This document shows, piece after piece, positions 6,085-57,929 of a stretch of DNA of 64,000 nt (positions are counted from its first letter, which is position 1; each line of letters begins with the position of its first letter). The stretch covers positions 1 through 64,000 of the forward strand of contig NZ_JRNB01000067.1 of NCBI RefSeq assembly GCF_000758885.1, written 5' to 3'. Below the pieces are notes generated by a model that was not told the DNA's origin, searched no databases, and saw only the letters and a list, made by a program, of their open reading frames with translations. This DNA comes from Peptostreptococcus sp. MV1 (GTDB taxonomy: Bacteria; Bacillota; Clostridia; Peptostreptococcales; Peptostreptococcaceae). Position numbers and translations under genes: made by a program.

Positions 6085-6182
6085 CAAATTTAATTTGCTT
6101 AGGGCGATTTTCCTCCTTGTGCACATAATACTATAGTGGATATCTTATGTATAAATAGATGATACTAGGAGGAGGTAGACCA

Positions 6183-7247
6183 ATGCTTGATTATATAAAA
6201 AGCTTGAACCATATAGAATATTCAGACATACATATAAGAGAGGGCAAGGAACTAGCACTTAGGCTAGATGGAGATATTGTAAAGACCAATGTAATAGTAT
6301 CTCGTGATGATATATTGAGATTTATGGATGGTGTAGGCAGGGCAGATATGGTGGACAAGATAGGGTCCAGTGGTGACTTGGATTTTTCTGTAGACTCGGA
6401 TGGCTTGAGGTTTAGGGCCAACTTGTTTTTGCAGAGGTCAGGTATGGGCTTGGTGCTCAGGAGGATAAATAATCATATTAGGTCCATAGAGGAACTGGGG
6501 CTTCCTCATATTGTAACTGACTTTGCTAGATTGACCAGTGGTCTAGTCCTGATAACAGGTCCTACTGGATCAGGCAAGTCCACTAGCCTAGCAGCTATTA
6601 TAGAATATATAAATGTAAATTTTGCCAAGCATATAGTCTGTATAGAGGACCCCATTGAATACTACTATGAGGACAAGAGGTCTATTATCAGCCAAAGAGA
6701 GTTGGGACTGGATTCAACTTCTTTTGAAAATGCCCTTAAATATTCTTTGAGACAGGACCCCGACGTTATAGTGATTGGTGAGCTAAGAGATCAGGAAACT
6801 GTAAGAATTGCCATGAGGGCGGCTGAGACAGGCCACCTATGTTTTTGCACCCTCCATACCTTGGGAGCAGGGGCAAGTGTGGAAAGGTTGATAGATATGT
6901 TTGATACAGGTGACCACACCAAGGTTAGGACCCAGTTGGCCATGGTGCTCAGGGGTGTATTGTCCCAACAACTGATACAAACAAGTAGAGGAAGAAGATT
7001 GGTAGTGGAGCTTCTCCTATCAGACAAGTCTGTTGCCAATATGCTCAGGGAAGGCAAGACAAATCAACTGACCAACTATATACTTACGAACAAGTCCAGG
7101 GGGATGGAGTCAATGGATGAAAACCTCCTGGCTCTCTATGATTCCAAGCTGATAGACCTAGACTGCCTATTAGACCATGCAATAGACCAAGATTACCTGA
7201 TGAAAAAGAAGGGTAAGGTCAAGGAGGGCTATGGATTATGGAAGTAG
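6183..7247 (+). CDS. pilT: PilT-family twitching-motility ATPase
   Basis: This is a hexameric secretion/retraction ATPase of 354 residues, a typical PilT length. An N-terminal PAS-like part precedes the RecA-like core with Walker A GPTGSGKST (near residue 126), an Asp box, Walker B VIVIGELRD and the HLCFCTLHT histidine box. The ATG at 6183 follows AGGAGGAGG; the upstream ATG at 6159 lies before that site. The next ORF, a prepilin peptidase, overlaps its end by 10 bp. By family it would power pilus retraction or disassembly, but no pilin, PilB, PilC or PilM-Q gene is near. It could also belong to a DNA-uptake or type II-like machine encoded elsewhere. Confidence 0.9.
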   Translation: MLDYIKSLNHIEYSDIHIREGKELALRLDGDIVKTNVIVSRDDILRFMDGVGRADMVDKIGSSGDLDFSVDSDGLRFRANLFLQRSGMGLVLRRINNHIRSIEELGLPHIVTDFARLTSGLVLITGPTGSGKSTSLAAIIEYINVNFAKHIVCIEDPIEYYYEDKRSIISQRELGLDSTSFENALKYSLRQDPDVIVIGELRDQETVRIAMRAAETGHLCFCTLHTLGAGASVERLIDMFDTGDHTKVRTQLAMVLRGVLSQQLIQTSRGRRLVVELLLSDKSVANMLREGKTNQLTNYILTNKSRGMESMDENLLALYDSKLIDLDCLLDHAIDQDYLMKKKGKVKEGYGLWK

Positions 7248-7882
7248 TTGTATATTTTGCCCTTAGTTGTCTACTACTAGGTATCTTTACCATGACTCTC
7301 TTGGAAGCAAGGGGGCTTGAAATTTCTATAGGGGGACAAATTTTTATATTTGGACTCATATGTTTATCGGTTATTTATAATATTTACTGTGTAGCCATAG
7401 GAGATTTTTTCTACATTTGTCGGATGGTCTATATTCTGCCCTTCTTGATAGCTATATCCCTGGTTGATGCTAGCAGCCAGTGGGTATTTGATATAGATGT
7501 GATGGGCGGTCTTGTCCTTAGTGAATCTATATTGGTCTTGGAAATATTAGAAATTTTGCTTGATACTGGAAATACTATAGATAAAATTGGCCCGTTGATT
7601 TATAATAATGTAGTAGGCGTTTTGGTCTTGGTCGGCCTATCTTATGGTTTACACAGGTTTACCAAGGGGCTTGGCATGGGAGATGTCCTAGTATATGCCA
7701 TGGTTGGAACCATGGGTGGCTTGCTAGATTCCTTAGCGGTATTTTTTTTATCGTTTATAAGTGCAGGCCTATATTGTGTGATAATATTGATAAATACGAG
7801 GAAAAAGGACGGTTTGATAGCATTCACTCCGTTTATTTCTATTGGTTTTATAGTGACATATGAAATAATGATATTTATTTAG
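7238..7882 (+). CDS. A24 family prepilin peptidase-like membrane protein
   Basis: The 214-residue polytopic membrane protein has about six to seven hydrophobic segments. The aspartyl peptidase signature GMGD lies in GLGMGDVLVYAM (near residue 145), and a candidate first catalytic Asp is in SLVDASS (near residue 80). It lacks the N-terminal cysteine-rich methylase part of full-length PilD, so it resembles short A24 peptidases. The start overlaps the pilT end and AAGGAGGG lies 9 bp upstream, indicating translational coupling. By family it would process type IV prepilins or competence pseudopilins. The pairing with pilT supports this, but no substrate gene is in the window. Confidence 0.8.
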   Translation: MEVVVYFALSCLLLGIFTMTLLEARGLEISIGGQIFIFGLICLSVIYNIYCVAIGDFFYICRMVYILPFLIAISLVDASSQWVFDIDVMGGLVLSESILVLEILEILLDTGNTIDKIGPLIYNNVVGVLVLVGLSYGLHRFTKGLGMGDVLVYAMVGTMGGLLDSLAVFFLSFISAGLYCVIILINTRKKDGLIAFTPFISIGFIVTYEIMIFI

Positions 7883-54697: not shown

Positions 54698-56251
54698 ATG
54701 GAAAAGAAAAATAATGAAAAGGCCTTGTTAGTTATTAGCTTTGGGACTTCACATATGGATACGAGAAAGAAAACTATAGAGGTTTGCGAAAGAAAGTTGA
54801 TGGATGCCTTTCCTGAATATGATTTTTTTAGGGCATGGACATCCAAGATGATTATAAAAAAACTAAAATACAGGGACAAGGAGGAGATACTTTATCCGAG
54901 TCAGGCCCTAGATATGCTCCTTGAAAAGGGCTATAGGGAGGTATACATCCAGTCTCTCCACCTTATCTGCGGTGAAGAGTACAATAAGATGGTGAATATA
55001 ATAGACAATTACAGGCACAAGTTTGACAAGCTTGTAGTAGGTAGGCCCCTGCTTACAAGCTTGGATGACTATGACTATGTGACCGATTTTATAAGAGATG
55101 TCAGCTTAGAAGATACTGAGCATGATGTGAATAGGTCTGCCAGTGTGTGGATGGGGCATGGAACTGGGCATATGGCCCACTCTGCCTACGCAGCTATGGA
55201 CTATAGGCTGAGTAGGAGGTCTATCAAGGCCTATATAGGTACTGTAGAAGGGTATCCAGAACTGGAGGATATAATATTTTTCCTGAAGAAGGATGGAATA
55301 GAAAAACTACACCTTAGACCCTTTCTCCTGGTAGCAGGTGACCATGCAAAGAATGACATGGCAGGAGATGATGAGGACTCTTGGCTAAATATATTGAAAA
55401 GAGAAGGATTTGATGTAGAGGTCCATATGGAGGGGATAGGTGAGTTTGTACCTGTTCAGGACAAGTTTGTAGAAAATCTAAGGGATGCAATTGAGGAAGA
55501 AAAAAGCATGGGTCAGGCTCAAGAAGCTGACAATACTGAAAAAGGGAAGTTCTATGGCATAGGTGCTGGACCGGGAGATAGTCAGTTGATGACCCTAAAG
55601 GCTATAAAAACTATAGGAAAGCTAGATATTCTTTACCTACCTAAGGCTAAGATGGGTGGGGATAGCACAGTCAAAAAAATAGTAGCCCCTTATCTGAAGT
55701 CAGACCTAGTCTTGAAGGAAAGGCACTTTCCAATGTCTTTTAATAGCCAGGAAAAAAGAAAATCATGGGATGCTATTTCAAGAGAGATAATGGACGATGT
55801 GAAAAATGGCAGGCAGGTTGGCTTTGTTAGCCTTGGTGATCCTATGTTGTATTCTACTTATATCTACCTATTGGATAGGCTGGTAGACCAGGTTGAGGTA
55901 GAAACAACAGCTGGACTTAGTTCTTTTTCCAACATAGCAGCCTCAAATAATTTCCCTCTGGCTATGGATACCGACTCAATGGTGGTATACCCGTGCACAT
56001 CTAGTATGGAAGATATATCGAGAATCCTAGACTCTTTTGACACTATTGTCTTGATGAAGGTATACAAAAAATGCAGAGCCATAATAGAAATGCTGGAAGA
56101 CAAGGGCCTAGCAGACAAGTCCATAATGGTATCTAATTCATCTATGGAAGGTCAGCTAGTATATGGGGATATCAGTCAGGCTAAAGACCTAGACAAGTAC
56201 TCTTATTTTACTACAATAATCATAAATAAAAGAAGATACCAAGAAAAATAA
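54698..56251 (+). CDS. cbiK-cbiL: Fused CbiK (cobaltochelatase) and CbiL (cobalt-factor II C20-methyltransferase)
   Basis: The 517-residue protein joins two pathway steps. Residues 1 to about 265 are CbiK-type sirohydrochlorin cobaltochelatase, with LVISFGTSH (11-19), the metal His154 in WMGHGTGH and His216 in VAGDHAKNDMAGDD. After a linker (about 266-283) residues 284-517 are the CbiL tetrapyrrole methylase with FYGIGAGPGDSQLMTLKA and SLGDPMLYSTYIYL. Both halves look complete. The enzyme would insert cobalt into sirohydrochlorin and methylate C20 of the product. It ends the cobalamin run. AGGAGGGAAG precedes the ATG. Confidence 0.93.
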   Translation: MEKKNNEKALLVISFGTSHMDTRKKTIEVCERKLMDAFPEYDFFRAWTSKMIIKKLKYRDKEEILYPSQALDMLLEKGYREVYIQSLHLICGEEYNKMVNIIDNYRHKFDKLVVGRPLLTSLDDYDYVTDFIRDVSLEDTEHDVNRSASVWMGHGTGHMAHSAYAAMDYRLSRRSIKAYIGTVEGYPELEDIIFFLKKDGIEKLHLRPFLLVAGDHAKNDMAGDDEDSWLNILKREGFDVEVHMEGIGEFVPVQDKFVENLRDAIEEEKSMGQAQEADNTEKGKFYGIGAGPGDSQLMTLKAIKTIGKLDILYLPKAKMGGDSTVKKIVAPYLKSDLVLKERHFPMSFNSQEKRKSWDAISREIMDDVKNGRQVGFVSLGDPMLYSTYIYLLDRLVDQVEVETTAGLSSFSNIAASNNFPLAMDTDSMVVYPCTSSMEDISRILDSFDTIVLMKVYKKCRAIIEMLEDKGLADKSIMVSNSSMEGQLVYGDISQAKDLDKYSYFTTIIINKRRYQEK

Positions 56252-56366
56252 ATAATAATTATAAAAAAATTGTGAATCTGTATATACTTATAGATAAACA
56301 ATTTTTTTGTTGCGATGAATGTATAGGGAATAATAAAAAAAGTTATGAATTTTTTTGAAAAAAACG

Positions 56367-56394
56367 TTCACCTTTTTTGTAAATAGCCTATAAT
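56367..56394 (+). promoter_or_regulatory. Promoter candidate of the sigma-factor gene
   Basis: TTCACC (56367-56372), a 16-bp spacer, and TATAAT (56389-56394) lie about 65 bp before the sigma-factor start. The -35 overlaps AACGTTCAC, a string also found in the murC/purR gap. Confidence 0.45.
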
Positions 56395-56456
56395 GATATG
56401 TAGAACGATTATCTATAATATATAATATTAATAATACATTTTAGGAGGCTGTTTTT

Positions 56457-57326
56457 ATGGTTGAGTTGAATGAAGAAAAAATTATTTCAGAATTTATGAC
56501 TAATAATGGATATAAGGCTTTGTATAATGGTCAGGATGTAGACATAGCTTCTATAGATATGGATGATTTAAAGGATAGATTTTTGCTCATGAGATCAATT
56601 AATGGAGACAAGGTAGCAAGGAATAAATTTATACTAGGTAAAATTGACTATATAAAGAAGATAATAACAAGTGATAATGAAATAAAGAATTTTAAGTCAA
56701 GAGGATTGGACGATGAAGATCTTTTTCAAACGGGCGTAATCGGAGTTATTTCTGCAATAGATAAGTTTGATTTTAGGCCAGGAGTCAAGGTTAATACATA
56801 CATAAATAATAATGTGAAATATAGTATTAAGAATACATACAGAAAATATGGATCGATAAGTGTATCAAGAGAAGCAAATTCTATATATAGGATATGTTCA
56901 AAAGAAATGGATTTGTTGGAAGAAAAGATTGATTCAAGAAAAATACTCGAATTATCAAGGGAAACCAATATACCTCCTTCAAGGCTAGTCTATGGTATTA
57001 TGGCAGTCAAGAACAGGAATTGTCAATACAGATATGACAACGATGGTTTTCTAGATGCTGACCTTGTATCTACTGAAAAATATTTCCGTAAGGTTTTGAT
57101 GAGTTATCTAGAGGAGAAAGAACGTAAATTTAATTTTTGGTTGATTAATGAATCTATCGCAAAATTGGAAGAAAAAGAAAATTTGGTTATCAAAGAAATC
57201 TATATAAACGACAAAACTCAGAAACAGGTGGCTGATCAACTGGGGTGTTCGACAACATCTGTTGGAAATATCAAAAAGAAAGCTATTGAAAAAATAAGGT
57301 ATATGATGAGAGATTTAGATGATTAA
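56457..57326 (+). CDS. Sigma-70 family RNA polymerase sigma factor (group 3-like)
   Basis: The 289-residue protein has region 2 at about residues 53-130 (DDEDLFQTGVIGVISAIDKF; VNTYINNNVKYSIKN), a region 3-like stretch to about 190, and region 4 at about 232-284 with the helix-turn-helix TQKQVADQLGCSTTSVGNI. It lacks region 1.1. Length and layout recall the stress and sporulation factors SigB/F/G, but the sequence is divergent. It stands alone between a promoter and a terminator, with no anti-sigma partner beside it. Which genes it serves is unknown. AGGAGG precedes the ATG. Confidence 0.88.
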   Translation: MVELNEEKIISEFMTNNGYKALYNGQDVDIASIDMDDLKDRFLLMRSINGDKVARNKFILGKIDYIKKIITSDNEIKNFKSRGLDDEDLFQTGVIGVISAIDKFDFRPGVKVNTYINNNVKYSIKNTYRKYGSISVSREANSIYRICSKEMDLLEEKIDSRKILELSRETNIPPSRLVYGIMAVKNRNCQYRYDNDGFLDADLVSTEKYFRKVLMSYLEEKERKFNFWLINESIAKLEEKENLVIKEIYINDKTQKQVADQLGCSTTSVGNIKKKAIEKIRYMMRDLDD

Positions 57327-57346
57327 TTAAGAGGAATACTTTGACC

Positions 57347-57387
57347 AAAAATTTACAGCAGGTAAAAAATACCTGCTGTAAATTTTT
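57347..57387. terminator. Bidirectional terminator between sigma factor and Gx-transporter gene
   Basis: A perfect 18-bp stem (left arm AAAAATTTACAGCAGGTA, 57347-57364; right arm 57370-57387) closes an A5 loop, with A runs on one side and T runs on the other. It serves both convergent genes. Confidence 0.9.
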
Positions 57388-57401
57388 GATTAAATAATAT
57401 T

Positions 57402-57929
57402 CTAAGGATTAAATCTTAGGCTATGTTTCTTGAATAGGGGGTCAGTAAAGTTAACAACTATACCTATAAATATACCCGTAGCAAGTGAGGCTCCGAGCAT
57501 GACAGGTAGGTAGGTCATCATAGTTAGATTTTCTATCATGGCACTGGCAACCAGTAGCTGTCCAATATTGTGCATGATGGCCCCAAAGACGCTGATACCG
57601 ACTTTTGAAAATCCACTTATCTTGATTGCTATGTACATACCAAATAGGCTGAGGTAGGCACCGGCTATGCTGTATAGGAGAACGGTAGCGGCACCTGCGA
57701 ATATTGATGATAGGATGACTCTAGCACTTATTATTTTGAAGGTATCCTTGAAACCAAAATTCAAGAGGCATAGCATGGTAATTATATTACTAAAGCCTAG
57801 CTTAGCTCCTGGGAAAAAGGCTATTAGTGGATTTGGTATAAGTTGCTCCAATAGGTATAGGGCCAAACTATAGGCTACCATAAGGCTATAGAAGACAAGT
57901 TTTCTAGTTTTTGAATGACTATTATTCAT
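57402..57929 (-). CDS. Gx transporter family membrane protein (heptaprenyl diphosphate synthase component I-like)
   Basis: The 175-residue protein has five or six membrane helices and the family core NPLIAFFPGAKLGFSNIITML and GAIMHNIGQLLVAS. The family is often named HepPP synthase component I but is now grouped with ECF-type substrate-binding membrane proteins. The substrate is unknown. AAAGGAAAAC precedes the ATG on the minus strand. Confidence 0.85.
   Translation of the reverse strand: MNNSHSKTRKLVFYSLMVAYSLALYLLEQLIPNPLIAFFPGAKLGFSNIITMLCLLNFGFKDTFKIISARVILSSIFAGAATVLLYSIAGAYLSLFGMYIAIKISGFSKVGISVFGAIMHNIGQLLVASAMIENLTMMTYLPVMLGASLATGIFIGIVVNFTDPLFKKHSLRFNP

Follow-up and report, generated by a model that had tools for sequence, protein, structure and literature searches.

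The open reading frame (ORF) at positions 56457-57326 of the window, the whole 64,000-nt stretch of DNA analysed here, which lies on contig C67 of a 1.98 Mb genome, raises the question of which genes an orphan sigma factor serves in Peptostreptococcus. Read from its ATG start on the forward strand, it encodes a protein of 289 amino acids, in which two Pfam matches exceed the gathering score, one to sigma region 2 (E=4e-7) and one to region 4 (E=3e-9). Region 3 is not found by Pfam and is visible just through profile and structure matches, and the length of the protein suggests that region 1.1 is absent. Regions 2, 3, and 4 without region 1.1 are the hallmark of group 3 sigma-70 factors. The gene and its immediate signals are as follows.

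56457..57326, + strand: orphan SigF/SigG-like sigma factor gene, 289 aa (ORF, Pfam, profile matches)
56685..56849, + strand: sigma region 2, residues 77-131 (Pfam PF04542; Sigma70_r2 match)
57156..57299, + strand: sigma region 4, residues 234-281 (Pfam PF04545)
56443..56448, + strand: ribosome-binding site AGGAGG (read from sequence)
57346..57388, + strand: terminator hairpin with a 19-bp stem (folding compared with shuffles)

The top profiles for the protein are those of SigF, with 99 bits against a cut-off of 321, and of SigB/F/G, with 94 bits against 234, corresponding to 31% and 40% of the respective cut-offs. The SigG profile gives 84 bits against an NCBIfam equivalog cut-off of 457, and thus neither the SigF nor the SigG equivalog cut-off is reached. 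Scores of this kind point to kinship without membership. The closest solved structure by sequence is 1l0o_C (E=6e-18), listed as 'sigma factor', which we take to be SigF with SpoIIAB. An AlphaFold model generated from nine sequences is of middling confidence, with a mean pLDDT of 74 and a pTM of 0.50, and Foldseek aligns its whole length to sigma factors with low TM-scores (0.2-0.3).

Judging from the translations, the gene lies between a cobalamin-pathway ORF on its 5' side (54698-56251) and a convergent Gx-transporter-like ORF on its 3' side (57402-57929). No anti-sigma gene adjoins it among the window ORFs, and neither spoIIAA-spoIIAB nor spoIIGA-sigE is found among its neighbours. In seven of the eight other species, a heavy-metal P-type ATPase (again read from translations) lies upstream of the ortholog, and five of these seven also have an AEC-family transporter flanking the gene on its opposite side; G039 and the window species have neither of the two beside the sigma gene. 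The hairpin downstream has a folding energy of -28.5 kcal/mol (z=-9.5, with 0 of 200 shuffles as good), and since it is AT-rich on both flanks, it is probably shared with the convergent gene. The first-pass annotation had described a group 3-type factor with clear regions 2 and 4, diverged from the known sporulation sigma factors, with its own terminator and no adjacent anti-sigma gene. This description agrees with the Pfam scores, the failed SigF, SigG, and SigB/F/G cut-offs, and the probably shared hairpin, and the word 'orphan' is apt for the immediate neighbourhood.

Among 71 genomes of the family, orthologs of the sigma factor are present in all nine from Peptostreptococcus (E of 1.1e-59 or better). 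The other 62 are without an ortholog, and their best matches, between 1.2e-19 and 7e-12, are at the level of ordinary SigF, SigG, or SigB. A scan of 84,980 genomes, which is pattern-based and can miss diverged members, returned seven Peptostreptococcus loci (P. faecalis, P. russellii twice, P. porci, P. canis, P. anaerobius, and sp. D1) and three remote ones in Rheinheimera, a Gemmatimonadetes MAG, and a Prevotella MAG, with 20-26% identity over parts of the protein. In the collections searched so far, the orphan sigma factor is restricted to Peptostreptococcus. A phage or mobile origin was considered and rejected, viral contigs giving just two weak partial matches (28-29% identity). Within the genus, the median pairwise identity is 43% for the orphan sigma factor, compared to 80% for SigB, 85% for RecA, and 50% for SigH (n=5). 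Regions 2, 3.0, and 4 are conserved among the orthologs, and the gene is open in all nine genomes.

In a sigma factor tree of 48 rows, the nine orphan proteins form one clade with a support of 100/100, sister to SigF+SigG (91/74) and with SigB outside (95/84). They are not nested within SigF or SigG, and SigH of the same genomes sits apart from them. A long stem of 3.2 changes per column leads to the clade, and the tree program warns of long-branch joins, so that the tree suggests an ancestry on the SigF/SigG side while the long branches leave the sister placement itself unproven. Regions 2.4-3.0 differ from those of SigF and SigG, which fits a changed -10 element. Spo0A scores above the cut-off in none of the nine Peptostreptococcus genomes, compared to 57 of the 71 genomes across the family. 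The region 2 matches read in the genus, a part of the 50 listed, were assigned from their sequences to RpoD, SigB, SigH-like, ECF types, one phage-like factor, and the orphan, with no SigE, SigF, SigG, or SigK among them; the SigB-like factor, at G000 C56, has rsbVW-like genes in front. The absence of a sporulation cluster, claimed earlier for the window, holds for its ORFs and is matched by the genome-wide absence of Spo0A. The phylogeny that the first-pass annotation had proposed as a check places the protein in its own clade beside SigF+SigG and not as a SigF or SigG ortholog. Its idea of a retained and repurposed developmental factor fits this tree, within the limit set by the long branches.

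Comparing the upstream regions of the sigma gene, pilB, and pilT side by side revealed a recurrent GTTKA-N15-GNCTATA pattern. A scan of the comEC regions, taken beforehand as competence genes, located the pattern ahead of comEC itself in one genome; in three it preceded a gene for a ComEC-type metallo-beta-lactamase. The motif is bipartite, GTTTA-N15-GNCTATA, with the full form gGTTTAt-N13-TGNCTATAttatT, and in 48 of 69 regions a gap of 13 separates its 7-column block from its 13-column block. A GTTTA-like -35 element is of the SigB/SigF type and not of the SigH type. Across the genus, the motif is found upstream of pilB/comG, comEC, comEA, recA, yraN-comM-dprA, and the ComEC-type metallo-beta-lactamase gene. 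At the sigma gene of the window, the site (56366-56394) is located 63 nt ahead of the start codon and comprises two elements.

56366..56370, + strand: -35-like element GTTCA of the proposed autoregulatory promoter (motif matrix)
56386..56394, + strand: -10-like element GCCTATAAT of the proposed autoregulatory promoter (motif matrix)

This site tops the 59 upstream regions of the window when it is itself in the training set; held out, it scores 11.9, which is at and not over the 95% background level. The promoter that the first-pass annotation had assigned to the gene is present as a promoter-like site, with a held-out score that stops at the threshold. The site also contains TATAAT, so that by sequence alone its use by SigA is possible.

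The genes of the DNA-uptake machinery are well represented in the genus, with comEC, pilT, dprA, recA, and comEA in all nine genomes and a full pilB in eight. We searched for the core GHCTATA within 300 nt upstream of eight gene families (66 regions of 300 nt) and in a background of intergenic spaces of at least 100 nt. The core occurs on the sense strand in 49 of the 66 com regions and on the antisense strand in 6 of 66. Of the 172 background regions, 23 contain it, and at least four of these 23 are true targets missed by the filter (Fisher p=4e-19, the species not being independent). By family, it precedes the sigma gene in 9/9 cases, recA in 8/9, comEA in 7/9, yraN in 7/8, comEC in 6/7, mblC in 5/6, pilB in 4/9, and pilT in 3/9.

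A two-block matrix gave a similar result when each family was left out in turn: 55 of 69 regions score above the 95% level of 168 background regions, compared to 7 of 69 on the antisense strand. The held-out counts are 9/9 for both pilB and recA, 8/9 for comEA, 7/8 for mblC, 6/9 for the sigma gene, 6/8 for both yraN and comEC, and 4/9 for pilT. Rank tests yield p <= 7e-5 for the seven families other than pilT, which has 0.11; because the regions come from related species, these p-values are optimistic, and it is the families that count as independent. The matrix was seeded with consensus words from sigma, pilB, and pilT, and recA, yraN, and the lactamase gene were first spotted through pattern matches in some genomes. 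As comEA played no part in the discovery of the motif, it offers the cleanest test among the held-out families. Start codons were assigned by program or manually, and the pilT starts of G042 and G045 are doubtful. Below the threshold are the sigma sites of G039 (11.2) and of P. anaerobius (G038; 6.5, without a good site), as well as the regions upstream of pilT and yraN in the window species. A loose form of the motif occurs in 40 of 69 com regions, in 9 on the antisense strand, and in 14 of 169 background regions.

These counts bear on the suggestion, made in the first-pass annotation, that the gene encodes a competence-type factor. The suggestion gains from a motif that recurs in nine genomes, and the search for a shared promoter motif that had been proposed there has located one at com, pilus, recA, and dprA operons. 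The reason given for it, a pilT/prepilin-peptidase pair in the same window (6159-7882), is weaker than the suggestion itself, since this pair lacks the motif here (held-out score 1.1) and just 4 of 9 pilT regions pass in the genus.

Promoters of recA were read individually. Seven of the nine genes seem to have a LexA-box/SigA-like promoter near the gene and a competence-type motif further up (L178-L186), and those of G042 and G045 seem to be without the nearer promoter. The nearer box, GAAC..GTTCTTGAC, is presumably LexA-like, and the motif site would thus be a second, competence promoter.

At the scale of whole genomes the motif is less selective. The strict pattern is not enriched in bulk across the nine genomes, with 86 matches compared to 75 for a reversed control, and this uninformative count moved the analysis to gene families. 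Seventy of the 86 matches, together with those in the loci already analysed, were examined in their surroundings, giving 30 intergenic sites (29 distinct sequences). Sixteen of them precede the sigma gene (in three genomes), recA (in five), comEC, the lactamase gene, yraN, pilT, minor pilins, recD2, or rpsF-ssb; the remaining 14 precede genes of other kinds (for example hflX and pheS), unknown ORFs, or no ORF at all. A model of 40 sites run on the 71 genomes has a best match at E <= 0.022 in all nine Peptostreptococcus genomes, training sites included, and in 5 of the 62 others, and matches at E <= 1 do not separate the genus (12-32 per genome, compared to 4-26 elsewhere). Among the matches listed, 20 that are outside the training set were examined: eight inside ORFs, four within 250 nt upstream of minor pilin operons (in two species), radC, and rpsF-ssb, one about 790 nt before a prepilin gene, and seven before other or no genes. 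None of 21 best matches examined in other genera precedes a recognisable com gene, and several have no downstream ORF. Upstream of recA, the score has a median of 18.1 and a minimum of 14.4 in Peptostreptococcus (sites in training), compared to a median of 9.3 and a maximum of 16.6 in 30 genomes of other genera, where the core is present in 10 of 30. The core is absent before sigH (0/5), rsbVW-sigB (0/6, with three loci without a recognised rsbV), and five ECF or phage-like sigma genes, although one of these five reaches a score of 12.7. Sites that precede no ORF mostly run into convergent genes where they were read, and a small-RNA reading of them was rejected. A site in G044 C20 (L276 2393-2425) is the second-best match in the whole family and has as its nearest ORF one of 64 aa about 1.5 kb downstream; it may be a chance match or mark a small RNA.

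Which factor reads these promoters can be addressed by comparing site types at the same regions. One alternative is that the SigH homolog of the genus is the competence sigma factor and that the orphan is merely one of its targets or unrelated to it. SigH/ComX factors run competence in other non-sporulating Firmicutes, namely staphylococci, lactobacilli, and streptococci, according to the available parts of PMC3364868 and PMC3486894. SigH-like proteins are also present in the genus and diverge fast (median identity of 50%, n=5). However, SigH-type sites, searched with a strict pattern, occur in 0 of 69 com regions and 0 of 169 background regions, while region 2.4 of SigH is near the canonical sequence in the proteins compared, four of the five, and the -35 element of the motif is unlike that of SigH, which makes this alternative unlikely. 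Cin-boxes with up to one mismatch, a loose test, are mildly raised, with 20/69 com regions, 11/69 on the antisense strand, and 30/169 in the background. SigB-type sites are not enriched (2/69, compared to 10/169). The motif could instead be a local flavour of SigA promoter whose frequency at com genes reflects weakly expressed, AT-rich operons, and TATAAT does occur in some sites, including GCCTATAAT in the window. We regard this as quite unlikely, given that a G and a C ahead of TATA recur together with the GTTTA-like block at N15, that SigA-type pairs are no commoner at com genes (8/69) than in the background (26/168), and that the core is much rarer on the antisense strand and in other upstream regions.

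The orphan might also be a SigF or SigG that has been decaying since sporulation was lost and that either controls no coherent regulon or retains a few of its former forespore targets. Its position beside SigF+SigG, its 43% median identity, and the loss of Spo0A in all nine genomes are compatible with decay, as is a relaxed SigF form that is mildly commoner at com genes (13/69, with 6 on the antisense strand and 16/168 in the background); exact SigF-type (3/69, compared to 3/168) and SigG-type sites (4/69, compared to 4/168) are rare there. A gene that is open in nine of nine genomes with conserved regions 2, 3.0, and 4, that is nested in neither SigF nor SigG, and that goes with a coherent set of com promoters makes such a remnant very unlikely. 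Another, unrecognised factor could read the motif.

We favour, at a probability of about three in four, the reading that the product of this gene is the competence sigma factor of Peptostreptococcus, predicted to act through GTTTA-N15-GNCTATA promoters and to regulate itself. On this best reading, the protein would descend from the SigF/SigG side and work like ComX yet stand outside the SigH/ComX family. Once made, it would bind core RNA polymerase and direct the enzyme to the motif, whose recognition by the orphan we infer from the distribution of the sites. The site 63 nt before its own start implies that activation should feed on itself, adding a positive feedback on the sigma factor. The holoenzyme would further drive three sets of genes: those for the DNA-uptake pilus (the pilB/comG operon, joined in some species by pilT and minor pilins), those for the DNA channel (comEC, comEA, and the ComEC-type metallo-beta-lactamase that is encoded apart from ComEC), and those for recombination (yraN-comM-dprA, recA in addition to its SOS promoter, and in single species radC, rpsF-ssb, and recD2). 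Pilus, channel, and recombination proteins would then be made together, and this predicted joint induction may render the cells transformable. A broader scenario, in which an ancestor that had lost sporulation recruited a sigma factor of the forespore lineage as its competence master switch, replacing the SigH/ComX route and acquiring a rewired -10 element and a self-activating promoter that could make competence bistable, is one that we hold to be evenly balanced between right and wrong.

The closest functional parallels are ComX/SigX of streptococci and SigH of Staphylococcus aureus and Lactobacillus sakei, secondary sigma factors for late com genes in non-sporulating Firmicutes, a role predicted here for the orphan (available parts of PMC3364868 and PMC3486894). 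The Firmicute competence sigma factors described in those parts belong to the SigH/ComX family, in which the SigH proteins of two lactobacilli share just 29% identity (PMC3364868). Unlike them, the orphan is probably of a SigF/SigG-side lineage, is linked to a different motif, and has an apparent site before its own gene. Profiles, the PDB sequence match, and the tree all place SigF and SigG closest to it. A conserved G before the -10 element is common to the orphan-linked motif and to C. difficile SigF promoters, where it is described upstream of the -10 (in the part available of PMC3789822), and self-feedback is predicted for the orphan as for B. subtilis SigG, which feeds back on its own promoter (in the part available of PMC3174212). 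In contrast to SigF and SigG, the orphan has neither SpoIIAA/SpoIIAB neighbours nor Spo0A in its genomes, forms its own clade, and is predicted to act on com genes. SigB of the same genomes belongs to the same broad SigB/F/G superfamily, and its -35 element is GTTTA-like. It differs from the orphan in having rsbV/rsbW anti-sigma and anti-anti-sigma neighbours, in its separate clade, and in its sites, which are not enriched at com genes; the orphan has no rsbV-rsbW operon and falls outside the SigB clade. A SigF-type sigma factor of cyanobacteria, tied to type IV pili (pili, motility, competence), is of group 3 like the orphan but from another phylum.

Should the favoured reading hold, a competence switch would have arisen independently from the SigF/SigG side, and a sporulation-type regulator would have been reused after spore loss. 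An open-licence literature search returned no report of transformation in Peptostreptococcus, and searches naming the genus or its family turned up nothing on a competence sigma factor there. Parvimonas micra, formerly placed in Peptostreptococcus, is naturally competent according to the part available of PMC9045310. The predicted sigma factor and motif offer a handle for testing DNA uptake in Peptostreptococcus.

Several observations on the com genes themselves were made along the way. In G040 (L084 6985-10181 and L211), the com system looks to be decaying: about 90 internal residues are missing from pilB, pilC is directly followed by an integrase-like ORF, and comM is short, with no yraN in the 6.6 kb examined, whereas the sigma gene is open. 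The SigH-like factor (L237-L240, L244) diverges fast although the genus has lost Spo0A. ComEC is short in several genomes (~420-490 aa, with the Competence domain; L090 3616-4875 and 7604-8470, and similarly L091, L093, L094, and L098), and a gene nearby encodes a lipoprotein-like protein of its own with a metallo-beta-lactamase fold, as if the C-terminal domain of ComEC had been detached. Finally, two ORFs without a Pfam match follow strong motif sites, L106 1565-2359 in G000 and L157 1588-2118 in G039, and could be new competence genes.
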